Position numbers and translations under genes: made by a program. Under the pieces are notes generated by a model. The model searched no databases, was not told the DNA's origin, and was given only the letters and a program-made list of their open reading frames with translations. This document shows positions 6,706-63,840 of a DNA stretch of 64,000 nucleotides, piece after piece (position 1 is the stretch's first letter; the number at the start of each line of letters is the position of its first letter). Source of the stretch: Archivesica marissinica (taxonomy: Eukaryota; Mollusca; Bivalvia; Venerida; Vesicomyidae); NCBI GenBank assembly GCA_014843695.1, contig CM026400.1, forward strand, positions 35,572,234 to 35,636,233, read 5' to 3'.

Positions 6706-6911
6706 TTAAGAAATGGTGTACACCGGTGTGTGAGTCGTCGGATATGCAGCCGGATATGCCGTCGGGTAACCGGTAGGCCCTGGAGCAACCGTGGCAGTGG
6801 CTTGAGCAACGAAGACGAATTTGTAGATGATATAAACGACACCAATAATGAGCAACAACACTACAATACAGCCGATGACGATGCCCACGATCATACCTAT
6901 GCTACTTTCTT
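6706..6911 (-). CDS. Convertase exon 13: transmembrane helix, tail and stop
   Basis: After acceptor tttatttttcag the exon reads EESSIGMIVGIVIGCIVVLL (the first Glu codon is split) and continues hydrophobic through IYKFVFV. A tail of about 33 residues follows, rich in Pro, Tyr, Ala and Thr (YPTAYPAAYPTTHTPVYTIS), ending with TAA at 6708-6706. The helix gives a type I membrane topology. VYTIS at the C-terminus could be a YxxI-like sorting signal, although it sits very close to the end. The PTAYPAAYP repeats look like a small coding expansion. Confidence 0.9.
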
Positions 6912-7020
6912 CTGAAAAATAAACAAAACTGATATAAAATTATTGTACATAAGATACACGTCCTACAGAAAGTAACGAAAAGTTTGTAAACTGGAATATA
7001 TAATAAATAAATGAATACAT

Positions 7021-7180
7021 AGTCAAACCTGTGTTAAAGGCCACCTATATATAGTCAAACCTGTGCTAAAGGCCACCTATATATAGTCAAACCTGTGCTA
7101 AAGGCCACCTATATATAGTCAAACCTGTGCTAAAGGCCACCTATATATAGTCAAACCTGTGCTAAAGGCCACCTCCGAAT
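7021..7180. repeat. 32-bp tandem repeat, five copies
   Basis: The unit AGTCAAACCTGTGCTAAAGG plus CCACCTATATAT repeats at 7021, 7053, 7085, 7117 and 7149, nearly without change. The start AGTCAAACCTGT is the terminal sequence of the MITE at 61011-61191, so this is a tandem amplification of one transposon end. Confidence 0.9.
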
Positions 7181-7239
7181 AAAGGCCGCATATGGAAAAC
7201 CTGTCTCTAAAGACCACCATTTCTCTCTCCTGTCGAGCC

Positions 7240-10200
7240 ATTTTCAATGCATTTTAATCTCATAGATCATATTCTAGTCGATGAAGGTTCTATACCCAGT
7301 ATAGCATCATGCTATATAGAAAGTGACGCACCATTGAACGTTTCGCGGCATTTACCACTGTTTGTTTACATAAACGTTGAACATATGTATGCATACTCAG
7401 ACTCAGATGCGTTACCTTTCGCAAAACAGTGCTACAAATGGACATCGAACACGCAAATTCAAAATTATGAAAACGAACTTACGTCAATGTTACGAAGCAG
7501 AAACATAGACTATGATAATGTAAATGAAACCTATGATGAAATTATCGCTTGTATAAATGTATCGGCTAAAATTCATGTTGGAACAAGATCTTTTAAGCAT
7601 TACTTAAAACCATACTGGTCACCAATGTTGAAAGCATATCACAAAAATATGAAATTGGCTCGTTCAATATGGTTAAGTGAAGGACGATCAAGAAGTGGGA
7701 AAGCTTACGATGACTATAAGTTAGAAAAGCGCAAATTCAGAAGTAAAATGAGAAACGCCGCAAATACATTTGAACGGACCGAATACGAACGTTTAGATAA
7801 ATTAGCGGAAATGGACCAAAAGGGATTTTGGAAGGTGATAAACTCACGAAAAAATAAAAACAGTAAACGTGCGTGTAACGAGATGGTATTTAATGATGAA
7901 CTAGTAAATGAACCGGAGAAAATATTGACAGGTTGGCGAAATTATTTTGCTCACTTGTATTCATATTCGACCGAGCCTAACTTTGATGAGGATTTTTGTC
8001 TCAAAATTGATCGAGAGGTAAAGTATTTTCTGAAAACTGATGACATTGACTCCGAGTACAACTTGACAAATCCAGTGACTATAACAGAACTATCTAAAAT
8101 CGTCCTTACAATGCCAAACGGCAAAAGTGCATCACGTGATAACATAACATATGAACATGTAAAACACGGCGGTGAATTATTGATCGGTTGCATTGTGAAT
8201 CTCTTCAACGCGATATTACGCAACGAAGTTATACCAGATAACTTCAAAGAAAGTATAACAATTACTTTACATAAGGGAAACGGTAAATCAAAAACAAACC
8301 CGAACAACTATAGAGCTATATCTTTATTACCAGTGATATTCAAATTGTTTGAAAAAGTTATACTGACTAGAATTGAAACTGAAAATATTAATGATAAAAT
8401 ACACCCACTCCAACATGGGTTCCAAAAGGGAAAATCGTGCAAACTCGCGTCATTCATATACCAAGAAGTGTCAAACTATTGTTATGAACGTAATAGCGTT
8501 ATGTACACGTGTTTCTTGGATGCGATGAAAGCCTTTGATATGACATGGATCAATGGTATTCTCCATAAATTGTATACACTAGGTATTAAAGGCAAAGCTC
8601 TAAGAACTTTCAATGGAATGCTTCATGGAGCTTCCAGTCGCGTCTTGGCCCACGGACACTTATCAGATCCGTTCGATATAAAGCAAGGAACGCGTCAGGG
8701 AAGCATCTGCTCTCCGTTTCTATACACAGTGTTCATCGATGAACTCCTACACACCCTGAGCAACTCAATACATGGCATGTCAATCAATAATATACACCCT
8801 TGTGCTCCAACTCAGGCTGACGATATGGTGCTTATTTCGTTGACTAAACACGGACTATGTGAACTGCTTTCAATCTGCAAACAATATTCCATCAAATGGC
8901 GGTACTTATACAATGCATCCAAATGCGCAGTCTTAGTTCACAATCAGCCACGTCATTGCAAGGAAAGTATTAAATTGTTTTACGACACTACCTGCATTAA
9001 AGAAGTTGAGCAATACAAACATCTTGGTGTTGTTCAGCACAAGACTAGAAAAAATCCAGCGAGTGTGGATGATATACGACAATCAGCTAGAAGTACTTTG
9101 TTCAGTTTCATACACTCTGGAATTCACGCTAACGGCTTAAACCCAATAACGGCGGCAAAACTATATACATCAACTGTTCTACCAAGATCATTCTTCGGAT
9201 GCGAACTATGGAATCATATAACAAAGTCCGACATGCGCCATCTTGAGGCAACACACCATTTTTGCCTCAAACGATTGCAGAATCTTCCACAACTAACACG
9301 TTCTGACATGGTGAATGGTCTACTTGGCTTCACCTCCATTGAAGCGTATATAGACTTACAAAAGCTTAGCTTTTTAGGCTATCTGTGTCGTCTAAAATCG
9401 TCAGACATTGCACTGCAGTTGTTCATTTACAGATTGTATCAATACAATAACAAAAGTACAGCGCGCAATCGAGGTTTTGTGTCTGATATCGCCTGTGTTC
9501 TTGAGAAATACGGCTTAGTACGTTTTCTGACTGAATTTGTGTTGAATAATATGTTTCCTGGGAAACAACGGTGGAAGATAATATGTAAACAATCCGTCTT
9601 AAACTACGAACAGACAAACTGGTCACTGAGAATGGCTTCCCGTGTTGAATTTACAAGATTCAGAGACGTCCACGATGAACTTATCCCCGCCAGCATGTGG
9701 CGTGTAGCACTTGAAAAACCAAATACCATCGAACTTATGTCTTTTACAGCAAAACAAATCTGCAAACCTGTGTGTAGGCCTATCACATGCTTAAACTGTA
9801 ACACCATTACATATGATGAACTGTTCCACATTGTTTATGAATGCGATACTGTTAAATCAGATAACCTCAGAAACATTTACCTGAACCATGTACATGACTA
9901 TTTCTCTAATAACTTATATATGTTAATGAAAAATATATCACGACCTGCGTTCTTGAAATATCTACTAGGACATATAGACAAAGACATTGCCAGATTAATA
10001 CATCCGGAACAGTATTCAGACTTTCTGTGCACCAGTGCTTCATTTCTTAAGCAAGTTTATGCGATAGCATTATAAAATAAACGAAAATAATGTGTTCATA
10101 TATGTGATACAAAACGATACTATTTATATCACCATGTACTTCATAATGTACCATTTTCGCTTTCGTGAATCCTTATGTTGTTTTAGATGGTTGTATATTT

Positions 10201-13435: not shown

Positions 13436-14129
13436 CCAAGAAACAGAGAAATTGGTCTCAAGTTTTTCAGTTCTTTTATTTGACATGGTTGGAAATAAAT
13501 TATAGTTTTTAACTATATGGCCTTTTTCGGGAGGGCGTAATTAATGTTAAAACGTGAGACAATTCTTGTACAAACAATGCCATGAAACATACATACAACA
13601 TTATACAAGTTTGTTCATTTGTTTTGTTCTGTACATTGTATATATACAATGAATGCAATAGCACATGATTAAACTAAATAGTTTTAACTGCCCTTAATGA
13701 ATATGTACAACTACAACAAATCTCTAGCTTAAATAATACACATTCAGAGGTCAGCGTTGTTTGTGTGGCAAGTCTCCACATGCATATAGTTGCCATAGCA
13801 ACCCTGTGTGTAAATAACACAGATCCACATTTTCGTGTTTCCAATAAAAGAGTAGTCAAGGGAGATAAGTCATATATGATTTTTCGGCTGGGGCTTTGTA
13901 AGCTAACAAATTATTTAATGAAATAATGTTGTCATAGGCTTGTGTACTGTTTCATGTTGTTTTTGGTTGTTTCATGTATATACCTATTTATAATAGGATA
14001 ATAACAAAAGAAACATTTAATCTTTATTTGGACCAATCTTCCTTTGGTTGTGATGATGCTATAATCGGTAGATTTTGATTGGTCACATTTTAAATGGCTA
14101 AGCGACTTCCATATATAAATAACATAGTA
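13436..14129. other. Intron 12 sequence between two arrays
   Basis: AT-rich with no supported gene or repeat, apart from a small palindromic TGTATATATACA near 13638. Confidence 0.5.
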
Positions 14130-14630
14130 TAGCAATACCTTGCATGCAGAGGTCACTAATGGTATTCGTATAGCCATACCTTGCATACAGACGTCACTAA
14201 TGGTATTAGTATAGCCATACCTTGCATGCAGAAGTTACTAATGGTATTAGTATAGCCATACCTTGCATGCAGAAGTCACTACTGGTATTAGTATAGCCAT
14301 ACCTTGCATGCAGAAGTTACTAATGGTATTAGTATAGCCATACCTTGCATGCAGAAGTCACTAATGGTATTAGTATAGCCATACCTTGCATGCAGAAGTT
14401 ACTAATGGTATTAGTATAGCCATACCTTGCATACAGAAGTCACTACTGGTATTAGTATAGCCATACCTTGCATGCAGAAGTTACTAATGGTATTAGTATA
14501 GCCATACCTTGCATGCAGACGTCACACATGGTATTAGTATAGCCATACCTTGCATGCAGACATCACTAATGGTATTAGTATAGCCATACCTTACATGCAG
14601 AAGTCACTAATGGTATTAGTATAGCCATAC
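14130..14630 (-). repeat. 41-bp array made from the exon 12 splice donor
   Basis: About 12 units contain, on the minus strand, TGCATGCAAG|GTATGGCTAT, which is the 3' end of exon 12 and its donor. About 26 bases of each unit align with the exon end (ATAGTGACGTATGCATGCAAG with a few changes) and about 15 with the first intron bases. The array starts exactly at the real donor (14630) and runs into the intron. Confidence 0.9.
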
Positions 14631-14765
14631 CTTGCATGCATACGTCACTATTGATACTGTATTCACTTTTGCAGTTTACACATATTTTACTGTTGGCTAA
14701 ACATCCGCCATCGGCAAGAGCACTACATTCGGCAGAACTGGTACATGGTCCACCGAGGGCACCGG
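14631..14765 (-). CDS. Convertase exon 12: six-Cys module
   Basis: After acceptor gaacatatttcag, 44 codons encode GALGGPCTSSAEC, then GGCLANSKICVNC and SDVCMQ, ending at CAAG|GTATGG. It has six cysteines in an EGF-like or short furin-repeat-like spacing; I cannot assign a named family. It stands where furins have a much longer Cys-rich region. Phase 1 in and 1 out. The 41-bp array begins at the donor. Confidence 0.87.
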
Positions 14766-15197
14766 CTGAAATATGTTCATGAAAACCGAAATAGGTACGA
14801 TGTTTCATTGTTGAATAATACAAGTGATTTGATTGGATGATCTACACTCATCATGCTGATGTGAAAAAAACAACACTTAGAACACCTGTCATCAATTTAC
14901 TAACCGGACGGATCAGTTATCCAAGTGTGGACATGTAAAAGAACACGGGATGATTCTGGAATTGGTGAGTCTTTGAATCATACACCATCATCCCATCACT
15001 TTATTCCATGTAACAAAGCTATCCACTTGGCATGCAAACACTCAGTTCTATCTGGGTACCAGTCTGTACCTGAAATAAACCTCGGAGCGACATCCGATGT
15101 CTTCCTCCGCCAAAATACCGGTAAACGAGAAAGTTGCCATATCACCGAAGCTGTCGGTGCAAATTAAATACCGAAAACAAATAAACAATTCACAACT
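14766..15197. other. Intron 11, exon-proximal segment
   Basis: This is mixed sequence without a gene. A piece at 14940-15165 (GATTCTGGAATTGGTGAGTC, then AATAAACCTCGGAGCGACAT) looks like dispersed repeat sequence, but I found no second copy in the window. Confidence 0.4.
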
Positions 15198-17054: not shown

Positions 17055-20000
17055 TGGGTCTAATCCCGGAAGGCCTCTAAAGCCAACAGGTAGTGACATA
17101 GTTTACCGGACGGCCTCTCAGCCAACAGGTACTCACATAGCTTACCGGGCGGCCTCTAAGCCAACAAGTAATGACATAGCTTACCGGACGGCCTTTAAGC
17201 CAACAAGTAATGACATAGTTTACCAGAAGGCCTCTAAGCCAACAAGTAATGACATAGCTTACTGGAGGCCTCTAAGCCAACAAGTAATGACATAGCTTAA
17301 CGGACGGCCTCTAAGCCAACAAGTAATGCCATAGCTTACTGGAAGGCCTCTAAGCCAACAGGTAATGACATAGCTTACTGGAAGGCCTCTAAGCCAACAG
17401 GAAATGACATAGCTTACCGGACGGCCTCTAAGCCAACAAGTAATGACATAGCTTACTGGAAGGCCTCTAAGCCAACAGGAAATGACATAGCTTACCCGAC
17501 GGCCTCTAAACCAACAAGTAATGACATAGCTTACCAGAAGGCCTCTAAGCCAACAAGTAATGACATAGCTTACTGGAAACCCTCTAAACCAACAAGTAAT
17601 GACATAGCTTACTGGAAGGCCTCTAAGCTAACAAGTAATGACATAGCTTACTGGACGGCCTCTAAGCCAACAAGTAATGACATAGCTTACTGGACAGCGT
17701 CTAAGCCAACAAGTAATGACATAGCTTACTGGAAGCCGTCTAAACAAACAAGTAATGACATAGCTTACTGGAAGGCCTCTAAGCTAACAAGTAATGATAT
17801 AGCTTACTGGACAGCCGCTACGCCAACAAGTAATGACACAGCTTACAAGAAGGCCTCTAAGCCCACAAGTAATGACATAGCTTACTGGACAGCCTCTAAG
17901 CCAACAGGTAATGACACAGCTTACCAGAAGGCCTCTAAGCCAACAAGTAATGACATAGCTTACCAGAAGGCCTCTAAGCCAACAGGTAATGACATAGCTT
18001 ACCAGAAGGCCTCTAAGCCAACAAGTAATGACATAGCTTACCAGAAGGCCTTTAAGCCAACAGGTAATGACATAGCTTACCAGAAGGCCTCTAAGCCAAC
18101 AGGTAATGACACAGCTTACCAGAAGCCCTCTAAGCAAACATGTAATGACATAGCTTACCAGAAGCCCTCTAAGCCAACAGGTAATGACATAGCTTACCAG
18201 AAGGCCTCTAAGCCTACAGGTAATGACACAGCTTACCAGAAGGCCTCTAAGCCAACAAGTAATGACATAGCTTACTGGAAGGCCTCTAAGCCAACAAGTA
18301 ATGACATAGCTTACCAGAAGGCCTCTAAGCCAACAAGTAATGACATAGCTTACCAGAAGGCCTCTAAGCCAACAAGTAATGACATAGCTTACCAGAAGGC
18401 CTCTAAGCCAACAGGTAATGACACAGCTTACCAGAAGCCCTCTAAGCCAACAAGTAATGACATAGCTTATCAGAGGGCCTCTAAGCCAACAAGTAATGAC
18501 ATAGCTTACCAGAAGGCCTCTAAGCCAACAAGTAATGACATAGCTTACCAGAAGGCCTCTATGCCAACACGTAATGACACAGCTTACCAGAAGCCCTCTA
18601 AGCCAACAGGTAATGACATAGCTTACCAGAAGGCCTCTAAGCCAACATGTAATGACACAGCTTACCAGAAGTCCTCTAAGCCAACCAGTAATGACATAGC
18701 TTACTGGAAGGCCTCTAAGCCAACATGTAATGACATAGCTTACTGGACGGCCTCTAAGCCAACACGTAATGACATAGCTTACTGGACGCCTCTAAGCCAA
18801 CATGTAATGACATAGCTTACCGGAAGGCCTCTAAGCCAACAAGTAATGACATAGTTTACCAGAAGGCCTCTAAGCCAACAAGTAATGACATAGCTTACCA
18901 GAAGGCCTCTAAGCCAACAAGTAATGTCATAGCTTACTGGACGGCCTCTAAGCCAACAAATAATGACATAGCATACCAGAAGACCTCTAAGCCAACAAGT
19001 AATGACATAGCTTACCAGAAGGCCTCTAAGCCAACAAGTAATGGCATAGCTTGCTGGAAGCCTCTAAGCCAACAAGAAATGACATAGCTTACTGGAGGCA
19101 TCTAAGCCAACAAGTAATGTCATAGCTTACTGGACGGCCTCTAAGCCAACAAATAATGACATAGCTTACCAGAAGACCTCTAAGCCAACAAGTAATGACA
19201 TAGCTTACCAGAAGGCCTCTAAGCCAACAAGTAATGGCATAGCTTACTGGAAGCCTCTAAGCCAACAAGAAATGACATAGCTTACTGGAGGCCTCTAAGC
19301 CAACAAGTAATGGCATAGTTTACTGGAAGGCCTCTAAGCCGACAAGTAATGACATAGCTTACTGGAGGCCTCTACGCCAACACGTAATTACATAGCTTAC
19401 CGGACGGCCTCTAAGTCAACAAGTAATGACATAGCTTACTGTAAGGCCTCTAAGCCAACAAGTAATGACATAGCTTACTGGAAGGCCTCTATGCCAACAA
19501 GTACTGACATAGCTTACTGGATGGACAAGTAATGACATAGCTTACCGGAAGGCCTCTAAGCCAACTAGTACTGACATAGCTTACTGGAGGCCTCTAAGCC
19601 AACAAGTAATGACATAGCTTACCAGAAGGCCTCTACGCCAACAAGTAATGACATAGCTTACCGGAAGGCCTCTAAGCCAACAAGTAATGACATAGCTTAC
19701 CAGAAGGCTTCTAAGACAACAAGTAATGACATAGCTTACCAGAAGGCCTCTAAGCCAACAGGTAATGACACAGCTTACCAGAAGCCCTCTAAGCCAACAA
19801 GTAATGACATAGCTTACTGGAAGGCCAACAAGTAATGACATAGCTTACCAGAAGCCCTCTAAGCCAACATGTAATGACATAGCTTACCAGAAGCCCTCTA
19901 AGCCAACAAGTAATGACATAGCTTACCAGAAAGCCTCTAAGCCAACAGGTAATGACACAGCTTACCAGAAGGCCTCTAAGCCAACAAGTAATGACATAGC

Positions 20001-23000
20001 TTACTGGAAGGCCTCTAAGCCAACAAGTAATAACATAGCTTACCAGAAGGCCTCTAAGCCAACAAGTAATGACATAGCTTACCAGAAGGCCTCTAAGCCA
20101 ACAGGTAATGACACAGCTTACCAGAAACCCTCTAAGCCAACAAGTAATGACATAGCTTACTGGAAGGCCTCTAAGCCAACAAGTAATGACATAGCTTATC
20201 AGAAGGCCTCTAAGCCAACAAGTAATGACATAGCTTTCTGGAAGCCGTCTAAACAAACAAGTAATGACATAGCTTACTGGAAGGCCTCTAAGCCAACAAG
20301 TAATGACATAGCTTACCAGAAGGCCTCTAAGCCAACAAGTAATGACATAGCTTACCAGAAGGCCTCTAAGCCAACAAGTAATGACATAGCTTACCAGAAG
20401 GCCTCTAAGCCAACAGGTAATGACACAGCTTACCAGAAGCCCTCTAAGCCAACAAGTAATGACATAGCTTACCAGAAAGCCTCTAAGCCAACAGGTAATG
20501 ACACAGCTTACCAGAAGGCCTCTAAGCCAACAAGTAATGACATAGCTTACTGGAAGGCCTCTAAGCCAACAAGTAATAACATAGCTTACCAGAAGGCCTC
20601 TAAGCCAACAAGTAATGACATAGCTTACCAGAAGGCCTCTAAGCCAACAGGTAATGACACAGCTTACTAGAAGCCCTCTAAGCCAACAAGTAATGACATA
20701 GCTTACTGGAAGGCCTCTAAGCCAACAAGTAATGACATAGCTTATCAGAAGGCCTCTAAGCCAACAAGTAATGACATAGCTTACCAGAAGGCCTCTAAGC
20801 CAACAAGTAATGACATAGCTTACCAGAAGGCCTGTATGCCAACAGGTAATGACACAGCTTACCAGAAGCCCTCTAAGCCAACAGGTAATGACATAGCTTA
20901 CCAGAAGGCCTCTAAGCCAACATGTAATGACACAGCTTACCAGAAGGCCTCTAAGCCAACCAGTAATGACATAGCTTACTGGAAGGCCTCTAAGCCAACA
21001 TGTAATGACATAGCTTACTGGACGGCCTCTAAGCCAACAAGTAATGACATAGCTTACCAGAAGGCCTCTATGCCAACAGGTAATGACACAGCTTACCAGA
21101 AGCTCTCTAAGCCAACAGGTAATGACATAGCTTACCAGAAGGCCTCTAAGCCAACAGGTAATGACACAGCTTACCAGAAGCCCTCTAAGCCAACAAGTAA
21201 TGACATAGCTTACTGGAAGGCCTCTAAGCCAACAAGTAATGACATAGCTTATCAGAAGGCCTCTAAGCCAACAAGTAATGACATAGCTTACTGGAAGCCG
21301 TCTAAACAAACAAGTAATGACATAGCTTACTGGAAGGCCTCTAAGCCAACAAGTAATGACATAGCTTACCAGAAGGCCTCTAAGCCAACAAGTAATGACA
21401 TAGCTTACCAGAAGGCCTCTAAGCCAACAAGTAATGACATAGCTTACCAGAAGGCCTCTAAGCCAACAGGTAATGACACAGCTTACCAGAAGCCCTCTAA
21501 GCCAACAAGTAATGACATAGCTTACCAGAAAGCCTCTAAGCCAACAGGTAATGACACAGCTTACCAGAAGGCCTCTAAGCCAACAAGTAATGACATAGCT
21601 TACTGGAAGGCCTCTAAGCCAACAAGTAATAACATAGCTTACCAGAAGGCCTCTAAGCCAACAAGTAATGACATAGCTTACCAGAAGGCCTCTAAGCCAA
21701 CAGGTAATGACACAGCTTACTAGAAGCCCTCTAAGCCAACAAGTAATGACATAGCTTACTGGAAGGCCTCTAAGCCACAAGTAATGACATAGCTTATCAG
21801 AAGGCCTCTAAGCCAACAAGTAATGACATAGCTTACCAGAAGGCCTCTAAGCCAACAAGTAATGACATAGCTTACCAGAAGCCCTCTAAGCCAACAGGTA
21901 ATGACATAGCTTATCAGAAGGCCTCTAAGCCAACATGTAATGACACAGCTTACCAGAAGGCCTCTAAGCCAACCAGTAATGACATAGCTTACTGGAAGGC
22001 CTCTAAGCCAACATGTAATGACATAGCTTACTGGACGGCCTCTACGCCAACACGTAATGACATAGCTTACTGGACGCCTCTAAGCCAACATGTAATGAGA
22101 TAGCTTACCGTAAGGCCTCTAAGCCAACAAGTAATGACATAGTTTACCAGAAGGCCTCTAAGCCAACAAGTAATGACATAGCTTACCAGAAGGCCTCTAA
22201 GCCAACAAGTAATGTCATAGCTTACTGGACGGCCTCTAAGCCAACAAATAATGACATAGCATACCAGAAGACCTCTAAGCCAACAAGTAATGACATAGCT
22301 TACCAGAAGGCCTCTAAGCCAACAAGTAATGGCATAGCTTGCTGGAAGCCTCTAAGCCAACAAGAAATGACATAGCTTACTGGAGGCATCTAAGCCAACA
22401 AGTAATGTCATAGCTTACTGGACGGCCTCTAAGCCAACAAATAATGACATAGCTTACCAGAAGACCTCTAAGCCAACAAGTAATGACATAGCTTACCAGA
22501 AGGCCTCTAAGCCAACAAGTAATGGCATAGCTTACTGGAAGCCTCTAAGCCAACAAGAAATGACATAGCTTACTGGAGGCCTCTAAGCCAACAAGTAATG
22601 ACATAGCTTACCAGAAGACCTCTAAGCCAACAAGTAATGGCATAGTTTACTGGAAGGCCTCTAAGCCGACAAGTAATGACATAGCTTACTGGAGGCCTCT
22701 ACGCCAACACGTAATTACATAGCTTACCGGACGGCCTCTAAGCCAACAAGTAATGACATAGCTTACTGTAAGGCCTCTAAGCCAACAAGTAATGACATAG
22801 CTTACTGGAAGGCCTCTATGCCAACAAGTACTGACATAGCTTACTGGATGGACAAGTAATGACATAGCTTACCGGAAGGCCTCTAAGCCAACTAGTACTG
22901 ACATAGCTTACTGGAGGCCTCTAAGCCAACAAGTAATGACATAGCTTACCAGAAGGCCTCTAAGCCAACAAATAATGACATAGCTTACCGGAAGGCCTCT

Positions 23001-26000
23001 AAGCCAACAAGTAATGACATAGCTTACCAGAAGGCCTCTAAGACAACAAGTAATGACATAGCTTACCAGAAGGCCTCTAAGCCAACAGGTAATGACACAG
23101 CTTACCAGAAGCCCTCTAAGCCAACAAGTAATGACATAGCTTACTGGAAGGCCAACAAGTAATGACATAGCTTACCAGAAGCCCTCTAAGCCAACATGTA
23201 ATGACATAGCTTACCAGAAGCCCTCTAAGCCAACAAGTAATGACATAGCTTACCAGAAAGCCTCTAAGCCAACAGGTAATGACACAGCTTACCAGAAGGC
23301 CTCTAAGCCAACAAGTAATGACATAGCTTACTGGAAGGCCTCTAAGCCAACAAGTAATAACATAGCTTACCAGAAGGCCTCTAAGCCAACAAGTAATGAC
23401 ATAGCTTACCAGAAGGCCTCTAAGCCAACAGGTAATGACACAGCTTACCAGAAGCCCTCTAAGCCAACAAGTAATGACATAGCTTACTGGAAGGCCTCTA
23501 AGCCAACAAGTAATGACATAGCTTATCAGAAGGCCTCTAAGCCAACAAGTAATGACATAGCTTACCAGAAGGCCTCTAAGCCAACAAGTAATGACATAGC
23601 TTACCAGAAGGCCTCTATGCCAACAGGTAATGACACAGCTTACCAGAAGCCCTCTAAGCCAACAGGTAATGACATAGCTTACCAGAAGGCCTCTAAGCCA
23701 ACATGTAATGACACAGCTTACCAGAAGGCCTCTAAGCCAACCAGTAATGACATAGCCTACTGGAAGGCCTCTAAGCCAACATGTAATGACATGGCTTACT
23801 GGACGGCCACTAAGCCAACACGTAATGACATAGCTTACTGGACGGCCTCTACGCCAACATGTAATGACATAGCTTACCGGAAGGCCTCTAAGCCAACAAG
23901 TAATGACATAGCTTACCAGAAGGCCTCTAAGCCAACAAGTAATGACATAGCTTACCAGAAGGCCTCTAAGCCAACAAGTAATGTCATAGCTTACTGGACG
24001 GCCTCTAAGCCAACAAATAATGACATAGCTTACCAGAAGACCTCTAAGCCAACAAGTAATGACATAGCTTACCAGAAGGCCTCTAAGCCAACAAGTAATG
24101 GCATAGCTTACTGGAAGCCTCTAAGCCAACAAGAAATGACATAGCTTACTGGAGGCCTCTAAGCCAACAAGTAATGTCATAGCTTACTGGACGGCCTCTA
24201 AGCCAACAAATAATGACATAGCTTACCAGAAGACCTCTAAGCCAACAAGTAATGACATAGCTTACCAGAACGCCTCTAAGCCAACAAGTAATGGCATAGC
24301 TTACTGGAAGCCTCTAAGCCAACAAGAAATGACATAGCTTACTGGAGGCCTCTAAGCCAACAAGTAATGACATAGCTTACTGGAGGCCTCTACGCCAACA
24401 AGTAATTACATAGCTTACCGGACGGCCTCTAAGCCAACAAGTAATGACATAGCTTACTGTAAGGCCTCTAAGCCAACAAGTAATGACATAGCTTACTGGA
24501 AGGCCTCTATGCCAACAAGTACTGACATAGCTTACTGGATGGACAAGTAATGACATAGCTTACCGGAAGGCCTCTAAGCCAACAAGTACTGACATAGCTT
24601 ACTTGAGGCCTCTAAGCCAACAAGTAATGACATAGCTTACCAGAAGGCCTCTAAGCCAACATGTAATGACATAGCTTACCGGAAGGCCTCTAGGCCAACA
24701 AGTAATGACATAGCTTACTGGATGGACAAGTAATGACATAGCTTACCGGAAGGCCTCTAAGCCAACAAGTAATGACATATCTTACTGGATGGACAAGTAA
24801 TGACATAACTTACCGGAAGGCCTCTAAGCCAACAAGTAATGACATAGCTTACCGGAAGGCCTCTAAGCCAACAAGTAATGACATAGCTTACTGGATGGAC
24901 AAGTAATGACATAGCTTACTGGAGGCCTCTAAGCCAACAAGTAATGTCATAGCTTACTGGACGGCCTCTAAGCCAACAAATAATGACATAGCTTACCAGA
25001 AGACCTCTAAGCCAACAAACAATGACATAGCTTACCAGAAGGCCTCTAAGCCAACAAGTAATGACATAGCTTACTGGAAGCCTCTAAGCCAACAAGAAAT
25101 GACATAGCTTACTGGAGGCCTCTAAGCCAACAAGTAATGACATAGCTTACCAGAAGACCTCTAAGCCAACACGTAATGGCTTAGCTTACTGGAGGCTTCT
25201 ACGCCAACAAGTAATTACATAGCTTACCGGACGGCCTCTAAGCCAACAAGTAATGACATAGCTTACTGTAAGGCCTCTAAGCCAACAAGTAATGACATAG
25301 CTTACTGGAAGGCCTCTATGCCAACAAGTACTGACATAGCTTACTGGATGGACAAGTAATGACATAGCTTACCGGAAGGCCTCTAAGCCAACAAGTACTG
25401 ACATAGCTTACTGGAGGCCTCTTAGCCAACAAGTAATGACATAGCTTACCAGAAGGCCTCTAAGCCAACAAGTAATGACATAGCTTACCGGAAGGCCTCT
25501 AAGCCAACAAGTAATGACATAGCTTACTGGATGGACAAGTAATGACATAGCTTACCGGAAGGCCTCTAAGCCAACAAGTAATGACATAGCTTACTGGATG
25601 GACAAGTAATGACATAGCTTACCGGAAGGCCTCTAAGCCAACAAGTGATGACATAGCTTACTGGATGGACACGTAATGACATAGCTTACCGGAAGGCCTC
25701 TAAGCCAACAAGTAATGACATAGCTTACCGGAAGGCCTCTAAGCCAACAAGTAATGACATAGCTTACTGGATGGACAAGTAATGACATAGCTTACCGGAA
25801 GGCCTCTAAGCCAACAAGTACTGACATAGCTTACCGGACGGCCTCTAAGCCAACAAGTAATGACATAGCTTACCGGAAGGCCTCTAAGCCAACAAGTAAT
25901 GACATAGCTTACTGGATGGACAAATAATGACATAGCTTACTGTACGGCCTCTAAGCCAACAATGTGTGACATAGCTTACCGGACGGCCTCTAAGCCAACA

Positions 26001-35580: not shown

Positions 35581-35652
35581 CGGATGGAGTCCCAGCTAGC
35601 GGGTCTGTAATGGTGCCGTAAAATTCTATCTTCCAATAGTACAGGTACATGG
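35581..35652 (-). CDS. Convertase exon 11: last strand of the P domain
   Basis: A small 72-bp exon lies between acceptor acattgtag and donor TCCG|GTAAGC. It encodes MYLYYWKIEFYGT, the LxxWxLxxYGT end of the P domain, then ITDPLAGTPS. Phases are 1 in and 1 out, fitting both neighbours. The acceptor has a poor pyrimidine tract, so the exact 5' edge is the least certain part. The 39-bp satellite begins at its donor, with no spacer. Confidence 0.82.
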
Positions 35653-40391: not shown

Positions 40392-40509
40392 CTGTATACA
40401 TCAATTACGGGTGAGGAACAGCTGGTACTAGAAGGTACGGTAAGCCACGACGGCGCGTTATCAACCATAGACTCGGCGTCCATTAATCCAAAACCAAACC
40501 AGTGGCTCA
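40392..40509 (-). CDS. Convertase exon 9: catalytic to P-domain junction
   Basis: The split codon GTG (Val) is followed by SHWFGFGLMDAESMVDNAPS and then WLTVPSSTSC to VIDVY, ending at TACAG|GTAATT. SH(x)(F/Y)GFGL(L/M)DA is the conserved junction motif. Phase 1 in, phase 2 out. Four decayed copies of the first part of this exon with its acceptor lie directly upstream (40510-40925). Confidence 0.94.
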
Positions 40510-40925
40510 CTGAAAATGGATGAACGTACATTATTATTGTAGCGTGTGCTAGAGATGGCATGTTATCAACCATTGACAAGGGCATTATCTGAATCAAAAG
40601 TAGCGGCTAACTGAAAATGGATGAATGTACATTATTATTGTAGCTTGTGCTAGAGATGGCGTGTTATCAACCATTGACAAGGGCATTATCTGAATCAAAA
40701 GTAGCGGCTAACTGAAAATGGATGAACGTACATTATTATTGTAGCTTGTGCTAGAGATGGCGTGTTATCAACCAATGACCAGGGCATTATCTGAATCAAA
40801 AGTAGCGGCTAACTGAAAATGGATGAACGTACATTATTATTGTAGCTTGTGCTAGAGATGGCGTGCTATCAACCAATGACCAGGGCATTATCTGAATCAA
40901 AAGTAGCGGCTAACTGAAAATGGAT
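40510..40925 (-). repeat. 101-bp array made from the exon 9 splice acceptor
   Basis: Four copies follow exon 9 on its upstream side. Each keeps the acceptor CATCCATTTTCAG, then a decayed version of exon 9 (TTAGCCGC for TGAGCCAC, later ATGGTTGATAACACGCC for ATGGTTGATAACGCGCC). In the exon frame all four read VSRYF and then a stop. The four copies are much closer to each other than to the exon. Confidence 0.82.
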
Positions 40926-41069
40926 GAAACAAGTACGCCGACAATGACGTAATTCAAGTTTGGAATATTACATTGAAGTATTCTTTTGGTTTGTTATTTG
41001 AGTACGCCTTACATCGATGCTATAGTAACAGTGTCACCTGTGTATATACAGCTAAGTACATACTTATAT

Positions 41070-44821: not shown

Positions 44822-44835
44822 CTTAAATATAATAT

Positions 44836-44945
44836 TTATCATATTCACCATTTATCATATTCACCATTTATCATATCCACCATTTATCATATCCACCATT
44901 TATCATATCCACCATTTATCATATTCACCATTTATCATACTAATC
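44836..44945. repeat. 18-bp repeat next to the exon 8 acceptor
   Basis: ATTTATCATATTCACC repeats about six times, with TATCC versions in the middle. It lies within 15-125 bases upstream of exon 8, so it covers the likely branch-point region. Confidence 0.85.
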
Positions 44946-46248: not shown

Positions 46249-46395
46249 ATTTCCAAAAAAGTAACTCTTTTTTTAAAACAAATTTTAGCACTCACTTATA
46301 AGCCGGGAAGTCACTTTGATGCCATAATCTGGTGGTAAAAAAGTCATATTATAGGCGAGTATGAACGGCAATGTGAATGTGAAGCAACTGTAACC

Positions 46396-46531
46396 TGAAT
46401 GTCACAATTCACTGAATGTCATAATTCACTGAATGTCACAATTCAATGAATGTCATAATTCACTGAATGTCACAATTCACTGAATGTCACAGTTCACCGA
46501 ATGTCACAATTCACTGAATGTCACAATTCAC
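46396..46531 (-). repeat. 17-bp repeat next to the exon 7 donor
   Basis: On the gene strand, TGACATTCAGTGAATTG units begin about 11 bases after the donor GTATGTACATT and run about eight times. The start of the first unit (GTGAATTGTGACATTC) is part of the donor-proximal intron. Confidence 0.88.
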
Positions 46532-46542
46532 AATGTACATAC

Positions 46543-52225: not shown

Positions 52226-52299
52226 GAAAACACAATGTTGGAGTGCTGTCCAAGCTATTTCGTGAAACAATCACACCCGCATACTATTGTATAAGCATA

Positions 52300-55200
52300 G
52301 ACATGACAATAATAACATACCCGTCTTCAGCGTCTACATGTAACGGATCCGGACTATTGTATAAGCATAGACATAACATAACATAACATACCCGTCTCCC
52401 GCATCTACGTGTGACGGATCCGGACAATTGTATAAGCATAGACATGACATAACATACCCGTCTCCCGCATCTACGTGTGACGGATCCGGACTATTGTATA
52501 AGCATAGACATAACATAACTTACCCGTCTCCCGCATCTACGTGTGACGGATCCGGACTATTGTATAAGCATAGACATAACATAACTTACCCGTCTCCCGC
52601 ATCTACGTGTGACGGATCCGGACTATTGTATAAGCATAGACATAACATAACTTACCCGTCTCCCGCATCTACGTGTGACGGATCCGGACTATTGTATAAG
52701 CATAGACATAACATAACATACCCGTCTCCCGCATCTACATGTGACGGATCCGGACTATTGTATAAGCATAGACATGACAATAATAACATACGCGTCTCCC
52801 GCATCTACATGTGACGGATCCGGACTATTGTATAAGCATAGACATAACATACCCGTCTCCCGCATCTACGTGTGACGGATCCGGACTATTGTATAAGCAT
52901 AGACATAACATACCCGTCTCCCGCATCTACATGTGACGGATCCGGACTATTGTATAAGCTTAGACTTGACAATAATAACATACCCGTCTCCCGCATCTAC
53001 GTGTGACGGATCCGGACTATTGTATAAGCATAGACATAACATAACATACCCATCTCCCGCGTCTACATGTGACGGATCCGGACTATTGTATAAACATAGA
53101 CATAACATAACATACCCGTCTCCCGCATCTACGTGTGACGGATCGGGACTATTGTATAAGCATAGACATGACAATAATAACATACCCGTCTCCCGCATCT
53201 ACGTGTGACGGATCCGGGCTATTGTATAAGCATAGACATATCATAACATAACATACCCATCTCCCGCGTCTACATGTGACGGATCCGGACTATTATATAA
53301 GCATAGACATAACATAACATACCCATCTCCCGCGTCTACATGTGACGGATCCGGACTATTGTATAAACATAGACATAACATAACATACCCGTCTCCCGCA
53401 TCTACGTGTGACGGATCGGGACTATTGTATAAGCATAGACATGACAATAATAACATACCCGTCTCCCGCATCTACGTGTGACGGATCCGGGCTATTGTAT
53501 AAGCATAGACATATCATAACATAACATACCCATCTCCCGCGTCTACATGTGACGGATCCGGACTATTGTATAAGCATAGACATAACATAACATAACCATC
53601 TCCCGCGTCTACGTGTGACGGATCCGGACTATTGTATAAGCATAGACATAACATAACATACCCGTCTCCCACATCTACGTGTGACGGATCCGGACTATTG
53701 TATAAGCATAGACATAACATAACATACCCGTCTCCCGCATCTACATGTGACGGATCCAGACTATTGTATAAGCATAGACATGACAATAATAACATACGCG
53801 TCTCCCGCGTCTACATGTGAAGTATCCGGACTATTGTATAAGCATAGACATAACATAACATACCCGTCTCCCACATCTACGTGTGACGGATCCGGACTAT
53901 TGTATAAGCATAGACATAACATAACATACCCGTCTCCCGCATCTACGTGTGACGGATCCGGACTATTGTATAAGCATAGACATAACATAACTTACGCGTC
54001 TCCCGCATCTACGTGTGACGGATCCGGACTATTGTATAAGCATAGACATAACATAACTTACCCGTCTCCCGCATCTACGTGTGACGGATCCGGACTATTG
54101 TATAAGCATAGACATAACATAACATACCCGTCTCCCGCGTCTACGTGTGACGGATCCGGACTATTGTATAAGCATAGACTTGACAATAATAACATACCCG
54201 TCTCCCGCGTCTACATGTGATGGATCCGGACTATTGTATAAGCATAGACATGACATAACATACCCGTCTCCCGCGTCTACGTGTGACGGATCCGGACTAT
54301 TGTATAAGCATAGACATAACATACCCGTCTCCCGCGTCTACGTGTGACGGATCCGGACTATTGTATAAGCATATACATGACATACCCGTCTCCCGCGTCT
54401 ACGTGTGACGGATCCGGACTATTGTATAAGCATAGACATGACATAACATACCCGTCTCCCGCGTCTACGTGTGACGGATCCGGACTATTGTATAAGCATA
54501 GACATAACATACCCGTCTCCCGCGTCTACGTGTGACGGATCCGGACTATTGTATAAGCATAGACATGACATACCCGTCTCCCGCGTCTACGTGTGACGGA
54601 TCCGGACTATTGTATAAGCATAGACATAACATACCCGTCTCCCGCGTCTACGTGTGACGGATCCGGACTATTGTATAAGCATAGACATAACATACCCGTC
54701 TCCCACGTCTACGTGTGACGGATCCGGACTATTGTATAAGCATAGACATGACATAACATACCCGTCTCCCACGTCTACGTGTGACGGATCCGGACTATTG
54801 TATAAGCATAGACGTGACAATAATAACATACCCGTCTTCCACGTCTACATGTGACGGATCCGGACTATTGTATAAGCATAGACATAACATAACATACCCG
54901 TCTCCCGCGTCTACATGTGACGGATTCGGACTATTGTATAAGCATAGACATAACATAACATACCCGTCTCCCGCGTCTACGTGTGACGGATCCGGACTAT
55001 TGTATATGCATAGACTTTACAATAATAACATACCCGTCTTCCACGTCTACGTGTGACGGATCCGGACTATTGTATAAGCATAGACATAACATACCCGTAT
55101 CCCGCGTCTACGTGTGACGGATCCGGACTATTGTATATGCAGAGACTTTACAATAATAACATACCCGTCTCCCGCGTCTACGTGTGGCGGATCCGGACTA

Positions 55201-58200
55201 TTGTATAGGCATAGACTTTACAATAATAACATACCCGTCTTCCACGTCTACGTGTGACGGATCCGGACTATTGTATAAGCATAGACTTGACAATAATAAC
55301 ATACCCGTCTCCCACGTCTACGTGTGACGGATCCGGACTATTGTATAAGCATAGACATAACATAACATACCCGTCTCCCGCATCTACGTGTGACGGATCC
55401 GGACTATTGTATATGCATAGACTTTACAATAATAACAGACCTGTCTTCCACGTCTACGTGTGACGGATCCGGACTATTGTATAAGCATAGACATAACATA
55501 ACATACCCGTCTCCCGCATCTACGTGTGACGGATCCGGACTATTGCATATGCATAGACTTTACAATAATAACATACCCGTCTTCCACGTCTACGTGTGAC
55601 GGATCCGGACTATTGTATAAGCATAGACTTGACAATAATAACATACCCGTCTCCCACGTCTACGTGTGACGGATCCGGACTATTGTATAAGCATAGACAT
55701 GACAATAATAACATACCCGTCTCCCACGTCTACGTGTGATGGATCCGGACTATTGTATAAGCATAGACTTGACAATAATAACATACCCGCGTCTACGTGT
55801 GACGGATCCGGACTATTGTATAAGCATAGACTTGACAACAATAACATACCCGTCTCCCGCATCTACGTGTGACGGCTCCGGACTATTGTATAAGCATAGA
55901 CATAACATACCCGTCTCCCGCAGCTACGTGTGACGGATCCGGACTATTGTATATGCATAGACTTTACAATAATAACATACGCGTCTCCCGCATCTACGTG
56001 TGACGGATCCGGACTATTGTATAAGCATAGACTTGACAACAATAACATACCCGTCTCCCGCATCTACGTGTGACGGATCCGGACTATTGTATAAGCATAG
56101 ACATAACATAACATACCCGTCTCCCGCATCTACGTGTGACGGATCCGGACTATTGTATATGCATAGACTTTACAATAATAACATACCCGTCTTCCACGTC
56201 TACGTATGACGGATCCGGACTATTGTATAAGCATAGACTTGACAATAATAACATACCCGTCTCCCGCGTCTACGTGTGACGGATCCGGACTATTGTATAA
56301 GCATAGATTTGACAATAATAACATACCCGTCTCCCGCGTCTACATGTGATGGATCCGGACTATTGTATAAGCATAGACATGACATAGCATACCCGTCTCC
56401 CGCGTCTACGTGTGACGGATCCGGACTATTGTATAAGCATAGACATAACATACCCGTCTCCCGCGTCTACGTGTGACGGATCCGGACTATTGTATAAGCA
56501 TAGACATAACATACCCGTCTCCCGCGTCTACGTGTGACGGATCCGGACTATTGTATGAGCATAGACATGACATACCCGTCTCCCGCGTCTACGTGTGACG
56601 GATCCGGACTATTGTATAAGCATAGACATGACATAACATACCCGTCTCCCGCGTCTACGTGTGACGGATCCGGACTATTGTATAAGCATAGACATAACAT
56701 ACCCGTCTCCCGCGTCTACGTGTGACGGATCCGGACTATTGTATAAGCATAGACATAACATACCCGTCTCCCGCGTCTACGTGTGACGGATCCGGACTAT
56801 TGTATAAGCATAGACATAACATACCCGTCTCCCACGTCTACGTGTGACGGATCCGGACTATTGTATAAGCATAGACATAACATACCCGTCTCCCACGTCT
56901 ACGTGTGACGGATCCGGACTATTGTATAAGCATAGACATGACATACCCGTCTCCCACGTCTACGTGTGATGGATCCGGACTATTGTATAAGCATAGACTT
57001 GACAATAATAACATACCCGCGTCTACGTGTGACGGATCCGGACTATTGTATAAGCATAGACATGACATACCCGTCTCCCACGTCTACGTGTGACGGATCC
57101 GGACTATTGTATAAGCATAGACATAACATACCCGTCTCCCGCGTCTACGTGTGACGGATCCGGACTATTGTATAAGCATAGACATAACATACCCGTCTCC
57201 CGCGTCTACGTGTGACGGATCCGGACTATTGTATAAGCATAGACATAACATACCCGTCTCCCACGTCTACGTGTGACGGATCCGGACTATTGTATAAGCA
57301 TAGACATAACATACCCGTCTCCCACGTCTACGTGTGACGGATCCGGACTATTGTATAAGCATAGACATGACATACCCGTCTCCCACGTCTACGTGTGACG
57401 GATCCGGACTATTGTATAAGCATAGACATAACATACCCGTCTCCCGCGTCTACGTGTGACGGATCCGGACTATTGTATAAGCATAGACATAACATACCCG
57501 TCTCCCACGTCTACGTGTGACGGATCCGGACTATTGTATAAGCATAGACATAACATACCCGTCTCCCACGTCTACGTGTGACGGATCCGGACTATTGTAT
57601 ATGCATAGACATAACATACCCGTCTCCCGCGTCTACGTGTGACGGATCCGGACTATTGTATAAGCATAGACATGACATACCCGTCTCCCACGTATACGTG
57701 TGACGGATCCGGACTATTGTATAAGCATAGACATAACATACCCGTCTCCCGCGTCTACGTGTGACGGATCCGGACTATTGTATAAGCATAGACATAACAT
57801 ACCCGTCTCCCGCGTCTACGTGTGACGGATCCGGACTATTGTATAAGCATAGACATAACATAACATACCCGTCTCCCGCATCTACGTGTGACGGATCCGG
57901 ACTATTGCATATGCATAGACTTTACAATAATAACATACCCGTCTTCCACGTCTACGTGTGACGGATCCGGACTATTGTATAAGCATAGACTTGACAATAA
58001 TAACATACCCGTCTCCCACGTCTACGTGTGACGGATCCGGACTATTGTATAAGCATAGACATGACAATAATAACATACCCGTCTCCCACGTCTACGTGTG
58101 ATGGATCCGGACTATTGTATAAGCATAGACATGACATACCCGTCTCCCACGTCTACGTGTGACGGATCCGGACTATTGTATAAGCATATACATGACATAC

Positions 58201-58627
58201 CCGTCTCACACGTCTACGTGTGACGGATCCGGACTATTGTATAAGCATAGACATAACATAACCGTCTCCCACGTCTACGTGTGACGGATCCGGACTATTG
58301 TATAAGCATAGACATGACATACCCGTCTCACACGTCTACGTGTGACGGATCCGGACTATTGTATAAGCATAGACATAACATACCCGTCTCCCGCGTCTAC
58401 GTGTGACGGATCCGGACTATTGTATAAGCATAGACATGACATACCCGTCTCCCACGTATACGTGTGACGGATCCGGATTATTGTATAAGCATAGACATAA
58501 CATACCTGTCTCCCGCGTCTACATGTGACGGATCCGGACTATTGTATAAGCATAGACATAACATACCCGTCTCCCACGTCTACGTGTGACGGATCCGGAC
58601 TATTGTATAAGCATAGACATGACATAC
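52300..58627 (-). repeat. 61-70-bp array made from the exon 3 splice donor (6.3 kb, about 100 copies)
   Basis: On the gene strand each unit reads ACAATAGTCCGGATCCGTCA then CACGTAGACGCGGGAGACGG|GTATGT and a short intron piece ending TATGCTTAT. The first 40 or so bases are the 3' end of exon 3, followed by its donor. Length differences come mainly from the spacer (GACATAACAT, GACATAACATAACAT or GACTTGACAATAATAACAT on the plus strand). The array starts exactly at the real donor (58627). Nearly all units keep a GGATCC site. Confidence 0.95.
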
Positions 58628-58695
58628 CCGTCTCCCGCGTCTACGTGTGACGGATCCGGACTATTGTAAATGACATCATAACTAAGAGCAGCATT
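58628..58695 (-). CDS. Convertase exon 3: calcium-site loop before the catalytic His
   Basis: After acceptor ctttccag the exon reads NAALSYDVIYNSPDPSHVDA then GD and two bases of a Gly codon, ending at GACGG|GTATGT. It matches the convertase loop of type NYDxxxSxDVNDxDPxP that precedes HGT. Only this copy carries the full 5' half and the real acceptor. The roughly 100 downstream copies in the array keep just the last 40 or so bases. Phase 0 in and phase 2 out fit the neighbouring exons. Confidence 0.88.
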
Positions 58696-60285: not shown

Positions 60286-60296
60286 TGTATCTTGCA

Positions 60297-60472: not shown

Positions 60473-60479
60473 CCTCACA

Positions 60480-60765: not shown

Positions 60766-60863
60766 CCACCGCACATTTCTTCCAATTTATTCAACATTTT
60801 AATAATCTTTGTATTCACCAATCACTGTTAGGTACAAGTTCAAACCCATAAAACATAGCTTAC

Positions 60864-60992: not shown

Positions 60993-61010
60993 CTGAAGCA
61001 AATATGAGTA

Positions 61011-62120: not shown

Positions 62121-62128
62121 AAATAAAA

Positions 62129-62215
62129 GTGCTGTTCACTGTGCACTGTTGACCATAACGGCTGCAAGTCATGATGCTGTTCACTGTGCACTGTTGACCA
62201 TAACGGCTGCAATTA
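62129..62215. repeat. 54-bp direct repeat, two copies
   Basis: GTGCTGTTCACTGTGCACTG then TTGACCATAACGGCTGCAA occurs twice. The TGTTCACTGTGCACTG and GACCATAACGGC words resemble the decayed 69-bp units that follow, so this may be the oldest edge of that array. Confidence 0.65.
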
Positions 62216-62227
62216 ATTATCTGTGAT

Positions 62228-63750
62228 CGCCGATGCCATTGATATCTCCATTGGACATTGCTAACTATCACAGCTGTAATAGCCGTTAATTATGACCTGT
62301 ACTGTCAAAATGCCATGAATGTGTCCACAGGACAGTGCTATATGCGTCATGGTCGTTAATTATGACCTGTACCGTCAAAATGCCATGAATTTGTCCACAG
62401 GACAGTGATATGCGTCATGGCCGTTAATTATGACATGTACCATCAAAATGCCATGAATTTGTCCTCAGGCCAGTCCTATGCGTCATGGCTGTTAATTATG
62501 ACATATACCATCAAAATGCCATGAATTTGTCCACAGGCCAGTGCTAAGCGTCATGGCCGTTAATTATGACCTGTACCATCAAAATGCCATGAATTTGTCC
62601 ACAGGCCAGTGCTATGCGTCATGGCCATTAATTATGACCTGTACTGTCAACATGCCATGAATTTGTCCACAGGACAGTGCTATGCGTCATGGCCATTAAT
62701 TATGACCTGTACCATCAAAATGCCATGAATTTGTCCACAGGACAGTGCTATGCGTCATAGCCGTTAATTATGACCTGTACCATCAAAATGCCATGAAATT
62801 GTCCACAGGGCAGAGCTATGCGTCATGTTGGTTTGTTTATGACATGTACTCACCAGATGTCATTGATTTGTCCACTGGGCATCGCTAACCATCATGTTGG
62901 TTTGTTTATGACCTGTACTCACCAGATACCATTGATTTGTCCACTGGGCATCGTTAACCATCATGTTGGTTTGTTTATGACATGTACTCACCAGATGTCA
63001 TTGATTTGTCCACTGGGCATCGCTAACCATCATGTTGGTTTGTTTATGACATGTACTCACCAGATGTCATTGATTTGTCCACTGGGCATCGCTAACCATC
63101 ATGTTGGTTTGTTTATGACCTGTACTCACCAGATACCATTGATTTGTCCACTGGGCATCGTTAACCATCATGTTGGTTTGTTTATGACATGTACTCACCA
63201 GATGTCATTGATTTGTCCACTGGGCATCGCTAACCATCATGTTGGTTTGTTTATGACATGTACTCACCAGATGTCATTGATTTGTCCACTGGGCATCGCT
63301 AACCATCATGTTGGTTTGTTTATGACATGTACTCACCAGATGTCATTGATTTGTCCACTGGGCATCGTTAACCATCATGTTGGTTTGTATATGACCTGTA
63401 CTCACCAGATGCCATTGATTTGTCCACTGGGCATCGTTAACCATCATGTTGGTTTGTATATGACCTGTACTCACCAGATGCCATTGATTTGTCCACTGGG
63501 CATCGTTAACCATCATGTTGGTTTGTATATGACCTGTACTCACCAGATGCCATTGATTTGCCCACTGGGCATCGTTAACCGTCATGTTGGTTTGTTTATG
63601 ACATGTACTCACCAGATGTCATTGATTTGTCCACTGGGCATCGTTAACCGTCATGTTGGTTTGTTTATGACCTGTACTCACCAGATGTCATTGATTTGTT
63701 CACTGGGCATCGTTAACCATCATGTTGGTTTGTATATGACCTGTACTCAC
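62228..63750 (-). repeat. 69-bp array made from the exon 1 splice donor (about 22 copies)
   Basis: On the gene strand the unit is GTTAACGATGCCCAGTGGAC plus AAATCAATGGCATCTG|GTGAGT and the next 27 intron bases ending CAACATGATG. The first 36 bases are the last 12 codons of exon 1 and the next 33 are the donor and intron. Proximal units (62818-63750, about 13-14) are nearly identical to the exon. Distal units (62228-62817, about 8) are strongly diverged (TGACCTGTACCATCAAAATG on the plus strand). Confidence 0.95.
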
Positions 63751-63840
63751 CAGATGCCATTGATTTGCCCACTGGGCATCGTTAACCGTCACTACTTTCT
63801 TATATCTTTCCAAGTAATACTCGTCTTCAATAGATATCAG
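63751..63840 (-). CDS. Convertase exon 1 in the window: prodomain junction and start of the catalytic domain
   Basis: After the acceptor ctccattgcag, 30 codons run in phase 0 to the donor CTG|GTGAGT. The end, VNDAQWANQWHL, corresponds to the DPxxxxQWYL region just after the prodomain cleavage site of convertases. The upstream ERYKK could be the basic maturation site, although it is weaker than the usual R-X-K/R-R. The last 36 bases of this exon are the seed of the 69-bp array that starts at the donor. Confidence 0.88.

Follow-up and report, generated by a model that had tools for sequence, protein, structure and literature searches.

Tandem arrays at exon-intron junctions of a furin-like proprotein convertase gene in the clam Archivesica marissinica: probable mirages of satellite size

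How can satellites come to begin exactly where an exon ends, and how can a single gene tolerate several of them? This question is raised by a stretch of 64,000 nucleotides of the vesicomyid clam Archivesica marissinica (contig CM026400.1, positions 35,572,234 to 35,636,233; hereafter the window), which lies on C15 (56.9 Mb) of a 1.54-Gb genome and carries on its minus strand the 3' part of a furin-like proprotein convertase gene (6706..63840), with 13 exons inside the window. Tandem arrays make up 38,416 of the 57,135 bp of this gene span, and five of them meet an exon. A preliminary description of the locus knew of no named description of such a process; however, arrays of this class are called mirages in the available excerpts of two reports on lancelet (PMC3087553, PMC3902484). 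The evidence presented below makes it very probable that the five clam arrays are mirages, i.e., tandem copies that span the gene's own exon-intron junctions, their founding by slippage and their tolerance through splicing at the exon-nearest copy both being likely.

A convertase gene with five arrays at its splice junctions

When the 13 exons (Table 1) are joined they give one open frame of 594 amino acids with a single stop, ending at 6706, and all 12 introns are GT-AG. The encoded protein matches the Pfam families Peptidase_S8 (PF00082, 1.3e-40) and P_proprotein (PF01483, 2.2e-16), both above the cut-off, and this succession of a subtilase domain and a P-domain is that of the proprotein convertases (furin/kexin family). 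Its best solved relative in the PDB is furin (1.9e-103). Identity to named venerid proteins was 64-67% and to one unnamed protein 72%; the best named relatives include proteins of the heterodont clams Ruditapes, Mercenaria, Mactra, Mya, and Dreissena.

The arrays were delimited with Tandem Repeats Finder (TRF). When the exons, each extended by 60 bp of flanks, were compared with the window, repeated exon copies were found at exons 1, 3, 9, 11, and 12 only, out of the 13, and one match of exon 7 touches the last base of that exon. Four of the arrays had been described as starting at an exon's last base, each unit consisting of exon end, donor and first intron bases. The positions hold for all four (last exon bases 63751, 58628, 35581, and 14631; donors 63750, 58627, 35580, and 14630) and the composition for exons 1, 3, and 12, whereas at exon 11 the 39-bp unit shares just ~4 nt (TCCG) of the exon plus the donor, and it is more accurate to say that this array starts at the donor. 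Thus a unit spanning part of the exon, the splice signal and part of the intron, as in a mirage, is present at exons 1, 3, 12, and 9, the exon part being limited to those few nucleotides at exon 11. At exon 1, TRF placed the 69-bp array at 62768-63791, running on to ~62172 as a 68-bp sister family which is older and has lost the donor. The fifth array had been read as copying an acceptor together with the exon start, and this was borne out at exon 9, where the 101-bp unit (TRF limits 40504-40928) holds ~61 nt of the exon start, with 43/59 aligned columns identical. A unit covering the whole exon 9 was not supported, the match of the exon tail being not significant (268 of 1000 shuffles reach the same).

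The five units are unrelated, as had been proposed: nine of the ten pairwise comparisons gave P > 0.1, and exon 3 vs exon 12 gave P = 0.018 (uncorrected). Identity between exon and unit varies from 0.96 at exon 3 to 0.91 at exon 1 and 0.87 at exon 12, in addition to the columns given for exon 9, which is expected of births at different times. The earlier view of independent births from different junctions was upheld.

Table 1. Exons, junction arrays, neighboring arrays, breakpoint repeats and paralogs (window positions unless C15 is stated)
Feature	Position	Strand	Description
Exon 1	63840-63751	minus	
Exon 2	60992-60864	minus	
Exon 3	58695-58628	minus	
Exon 4	51909-51824	minus	
Exon 5	49680-49502	minus	
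Exon 6	48731-48522	minus	
Exon 7	46643-46543	minus	
Exon 8	44821-44715	minus	
Exon 9	40509-40392	minus	
Exon 10	38221-37938	minus	
Exon 11	35652-35581	minus	
Exon 12	14765-14631	minus	
Exon 13	6911-6706	minus	
Exon 1 donor mirage	62172..63791	minus	~15 copies of 69 bp: 41 nt exon end + GTGAGT + intron; then 68-bp sister family
Exon 3 donor mirage	52283..58668	minus	~98 copies of 61/66/70 bp: 41 nt exon end + GTATGT + intron
Exon 9 acceptor mirage	40449..40928	minus	4.75 copies of 101 bp, real exon start included: intron end + CATTTTCAG + diverged exon start
Exon 11 donor mirage (probable)	17066..35584	minus	~475 copies of 39 bp, 18.5 kb: ~4 nt exon end + GTAAGC + intron
Exon 12 donor mirage	14125..14650	minus	~13 copies of 41 bp: at least 20 nt exon end + GTATGG + intron
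Direct repeat TACAATAGT	58660..58668	minus	exonic copy, proximal edge of exon-3 array
Direct repeat TACAATAGT	52283..52291	minus	intronic copy, distal edge of exon-3 array
17-bp array	46395..46531	minus	8 copies; begins 11 bp inside intron 7, adjoins the donor, donor not included
16-bp array	44834..44939	minus	6.6 copies; ends 12 bp before the exon-8 acceptor
Paralog B	C15:35,678,764-35,714,828		all 13 exons; 43 kb right of the window
Paralog C	C15:35,227,429-35,254,880		exons 1-11; ~317 kb left of the window

Paralogs, direction of copying and founding

Searching the genome at the DNA level for the exon-11 junction gave two more loci on C15 (two of five candidates scored; the window itself was not listed), both of them introns of close convertase paralogs, B and C. 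Exon DNA of the window gene and of paralog B is 96.2% identical (1716/1783), no stop interrupts the exon matches of paralogs B and C, and the same arrays are found at the same junctions in the three genes. The copies number 23-24/8.7/30 (window/B/C) at exon 1, ~98-105/12/83 at exon 3 and 475/10/at least ~246 at exon 11, where the array of paralog C was measured from both ends (9.6 kb), its far end running into N. The exon-12 array has 13 copies in the window and 23 in paralog B, and was not found in the stretches of paralog C examined, which cover exons 1-11. The two arrays that lie beside a junction also differ, with 6.6/179/45 copies for the 16-bp array before exon 8 and 8/20/7 for the 17-bp array after exon 7. 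Not being independent, the counts from paralogs B and C did not enter the statistics.

Units of the exon-3 array are nearly as alike between paralogs (identity 0.940) as within them (0.945-0.951), and the 61/66/70-bp classes are common to all, suggesting that this array predates the gene duplication; the shared arrays were most likely already present when the gene duplicated. Copy number would since have changed up to ~45-fold, with 475 copies in the window gene vs 10 in paralog B at exon 11 and ~100 vs 12 at exon 3, an instability that refers to a comparison between paralogs only. Such strongly differing numbers in near-identical genes are also what would be seen if the assembly had inflated the arrays or invented them at junctions. 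This is exceedingly improbable, given that identical junctions and unit classes recur at three separate loci, that the units are diverged (mean pairwise identity 0.87-0.95 within arrays) and that independent cases in kinase genes, described below, are spread over three chromosomes.

The direction of copying can be judged from the exon ends at the array edges, which encode protein kept in relatives (DAQWxNQWHL, DPSHVDAGDG, DPLAGxPxAG), indicating that the exon came first. At exons 1, 3, 9, and 12 the exon sequence thus appears to be the source and not the product of the repeats. As judged by eye, the 41-bp unit is matched more closely by the exon 12 end of paralog B than by that of the window gene, whose exon 12 was therefore probably altered after its array arose. 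The reverse course, in which existing satellites entered the introns and the exon end or the donor was captured from the satellite, could account for the minute overlap of the 39-bp unit with exon 11. It is nevertheless very improbable: besides the protein encoded by the four exon ends, common to the relatives, the two of five candidates that were scored for the exon-11 junction, the window itself not being listed, were both paralog introns, and exon 9 preserves a one-copy stage which shows local duplication. In paralog B the exon-9 acceptor is accompanied by just a single diverged extra copy, vs the array of 4.75 copies in the window, and this single copy is a founder-like stage of the array; paralog C has, by eye, one full and one truncated extra copy.

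Minisatellites can be born by slippage between short direct repeats. The exon-3 array is flanked by the 9-bp direct repeat TACAATAGT (P = 0.0015), and in paralog B the corresponding repeat is 12 bp long (TACAATAGTCTG; 0 of 5000 shuffles). Such a placement between short direct repeats is what slippage or unequal exchange would be expected to leave, and a likely founding by slippage is in this way well supported for one of the five arrays. The exon-3 array resembles slippage-born minisatellites in lying between direct repeats of 9-12 bp, and differs from them in that one of the repeats is coding, so that the unit carries a splice site. In the mechanism proposed here, an array would be founded when the polymerase slips, or unequal exchange takes place, between a short direct repeat in the exon and its counterpart in the intron, and those processes would also make it grow and shrink.

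Two further features of the paralogs may be mentioned. In paralog C (L029, C15:35,227,540-35,227,760) a short unrelated insert lies between the exon-1 donor and its mirage; its ends read CTAGCCTGGG/CCCAGGCTAG and by eye it is similar to a miniature inverted-repeat transposable element. Loci L012-L015 and L028-L032 on C15 are clustered, near-identical convertase paralogs that differ in the copy number of their intron arrays, and they constitute a ready set for the study of satellite turnover.

Donor copies and the choice of splice site

With the true donor counted, GT is kept at 471 of 488 sites at exon 11 and at 95 of 98 at exon 3 (~97% of the window copies in both arrays), at 13/13 sites at exon 12 and at 14/15 in the young exon-1 family. 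Taking the exon-1 sites of the three paralogs together, 17/66 have GT, 14 of these being in the window, and the older family has lost the donor. Splicing at the second donor would lead to a premature stop in all four donor arrays (4/4), which fits the use of the first donor, and splicing is predicted to use the copy of the site that is nearest to the exon. Exon definition would pair the acceptor of the exon with the first downstream donor and leave further donors in the intron; donor copies would be near-neutral because all further donors lie within the intron. The earlier proposal that donor duplications are tolerated is supported by the retention of GT, by the open paralog exons and by the position of the junction-spanning arrays, eight of nine being on the donor side (two gene families; P = 0.02 one-sided, 0.04 two-sided). 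This bias fits a splicing filter, an extra downstream donor being harmless and an extra upstream acceptor less so. The production of protein variants from later donors was also considered, and was rejected as all four second donors lead to a stop.

Instead of being tolerated, the donor copies might be functional, as arrays of U1-binding sites that would keep very long introns from being cleaved and polyadenylated prematurely (telescripting) or would retain the transcript for splicing. This possibility is favored by the mostly intact donors and by the conservation of the donor hexamer, which exceeds the unit average in all four donor arrays (rotation test, P = 0.002; P = 0.0065 with CpG masked). 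However, the donor shows no clear depletion of rare changes (as few or fewer are seen in 32-39% of the unit segments compared) and the copies are related rather than independent, so that the conservation signal is a hint only. Considering also the exon-1 family that persists without donors and a copy number that is free to drop to 10, such a function is quite improbable, and selection on the donor copies, which was entertained as a separate candidate, is undercut by the same lost donors and the same want of depletion. A broader proposition would be that about a quarter of internal exons in this clam end in an array of their own donor, so that splicing would have to contend throughout the genome with up to hundreds of perfect decoys per intron, kept intact as U1 landing platforms for transcription through satellite-swollen introns; we consider it quite improbable.

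Junctions in the window gene and in a sample of the genome

The preliminary description had further regarded splice junctions as a nursery of intronic satellites. Junctions could indeed promote satellite birth actively, e.g., if splice-signal words favor slippage or if transcription-linked breaks cluster there, and the window gene taken on its own is in agreement with this. Under a null of random seeding, 5 of its 21 arrays span a junction vs 1.3 expected (P = 0.007), 5/19 vs 1.1 when arrays with at least three copies are taken (P = 0.004), and 7/21 lie on a junction or at most 15 bp from it vs 1.7 expected (P = 0.001). These probabilities are optimistic, since the gene was selected for showing the pattern.

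The genome-wide count suggested at the outset was run in part, on 16 kinase exons and 9 subtilase exon segments elsewhere in the genome. The kinase exons (192-300 bp, 16/16 without internal stop) were hand-picked from 131 matches of a Pkinase search and are not a random draw; they were chosen before the arrays were examined and fetched with 330 bp on each side, and the exon edges used in the seeding test are the ends of the family match, accurate to ~10-15 nt. TRF arrays overlap the family match in five of these exons, and donor mirages were found in four, L038 (37 bp), L042 (94 bp), L044 (113 bp), and L048 (59 bp). The copies in L042 are 100% alike over 50 nt that begin in the exon. The full donor hexamer is kept in all three extra copies of L042 and of L048, in two of three in L038, and in two extra copies of L044, the third of which ends with the stretch after GTA. 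Neither L037, where the array abuts the acceptor and holds no exon sequence, nor L045, where it lies just inside the intron, was counted as a mirage, and the same applies to L035 and L036, which resemble decayed donor mirages. The subtilase segments come from six of seven loci, L002 having been dropped as it gave no convertase exon.

Four mirages in the kinase exons compare with 4.2 expected under random seeding (5 vs 4.2 if L037 is included), and none of the 9 subtilase segments has a mirage vs 0.95 expected. Outside the window gene this gives 4 observed vs 5.1 expected (P = 0.82) and, pooled with it, 9 vs 6.25 (P = 0.13). Counted as exons with arrays, the window gene has 5/13 vs 0/9 in the subtilase segments (P = 0.049), or vs 5/25 when the kinase exons are added with L037 included (P = 0.20). 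Arrays at junctions do occur elsewhere, then, but with no excess over seeding outside the window gene; the nursery was dropped as the best explanation, and an active promotion of births by junctions is unlikely. Mirages seem common in this genome; as far as this small sample shows, births survive at junctions without being specially frequent there. In a region dense in arrays no special attraction to junctions would be needed, and retention of arrays that span a donor by chance seems about as frequent as that of purely intronic arrays.

Several points weigh against an origin of all five arrays as mirages founded by slippage and tolerated through exon-nearest splicing. Apart from exon 3, the breakpoint repeats are short and not significant, measuring 5 bp at exon 11 (P = 0.43), 4 bp at exon 12 (P = 0.91; 6 bp in paralog B, P = 0.14), 5 bp at exon 1 (P = 0.43) and 5 bp at exon 9 (P = 0.41). 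The overlap of exon 11 with its unit is too short to prove the exon as source. First-donor use in this clam is inferred from sequence, and the open reading of paralog B holds exon by exon, the edges of exons 10 and 13 being rough and no single joined open frame having been obtained. Finally, the excess in the window gene (5 vs 1.1-1.3, P = 0.003-0.007) is not explained by pure tolerance.

With regard to the surroundings, tandem arrays occupy 24-46% of three stretches around the convertase genes (C15 flanks, L008-L027), so the region, perhaps the genome, is unusually array-rich. In L037, in L045 and at 44834 and 46531 of the window, an array edge falls within ~12 bp of a splice site that itself lies outside the array; the limit of such arrays may be set by the splice signal. 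A 42-bp array at 15192-16987 has 43 copies in the window and 159 in paralog B, and its unit carries the donor-like word CAGGTGTAAA; no exon was seen adjoining it.

Relation to known arrays and significance

In the Rogers model, introns are reportedly gained via tandem duplication including AG/GT signals, and the potato RdRp is said to be a case of it. Such intron gain and the clam arrays have in common a tandem duplication that involves AG/GT signals; the clam duplication, in contrast, starts at the edge of an existing intron and lengthens that intron. The Rogers model is cited, for intron gain by tandem duplication, in the available excerpt of one of the lancelet reports (PMC3087553). According to the excerpts of both reports, mirages were found first in lancelet Adh3, then in globins and others, the genes being Adh3, globin, troponin C and PGBD5; they consist of 2 to 7 copies of units of 10-160 bp at one or two junctions per gene, are unstable in length, reportedly leave regular splicing unaffected and have an origin whose mechanism was called unclear (PMC3087553, PMC3902484). 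As far as these excerpts go, the clam units are similar in holding an exon end or start, a splice signal and intron sequence, on the donor as well as the acceptor side. The differences are that the clam arrays reach 475 copies and 18.5 kb, affect five junctions in one gene, are shared by three paralogs and occur in a bivalve, and that the clam preserves a founder-like stage and, for one array, a direct repeat at its breakpoints. Minisatellites (average 30-bp units) at exon-intron boundaries, with 27 intron modifications, are described in an excerpt on human segmental duplications (PMC2812944). There they were interpreted as creating novel introns or variable protein repeats, whereas the clam copies stay intronic and no exon or intron gain was seen. 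No mollusc mirage turned up in the literature searched, most subscription journals being outside that search. New in this clam are the bivalve host, the satellite size of the mirages, the five junctions in one gene and the sharing between paralogs, as well as the founder-like stage, the one clear breakpoint repeat and the occurrence in unrelated genes of one genome.

Mirages, which the lancelet excerpts present at few copies, thus attain satellite size in the clam and are also found in 4 of 16 kinase exons. Each intron concerned is a natural experiment in which near-identical donors are repeated up to 475 times and differ mainly in position, bearing on exon definition and first-donor choice; the clam genome would be a natural test of splice-site choice if the exon-nearest copy is used as predicted. 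For satellites, a concrete origin on the spot is provided, of which one founder-like stage and one breakpoint repeat survive. In practical terms, repeats of exon ends can confound gene prediction and copy-number calling where a genome is rich in arrays.

Some minor features of the convertase and its window complete the picture. In four relatives (P0001-P0004) the sequences corresponding to exons 12 and 13 are separated by an extra Cys-rich segment (GYCDxS...), repeated several times in the Ruditapes protein P0002; among the tblastn matches listed, none of this segment lies between 14630 and 6912. Within intron 12, antisense to the convertase gene, an open frame of 954 amino acids (7211-10075, plus strand) resembles, by eye, a reverse transcriptase of the long interspersed nuclear element type. 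An open frame of 432 amino acids (951-2246, minus strand) contains part of a ZIP zinc-transporter domain (PF02535, positions 2-147 of the 323 in the profile), and its histidine-rich part is an in-frame minisatellite (1771-2005).

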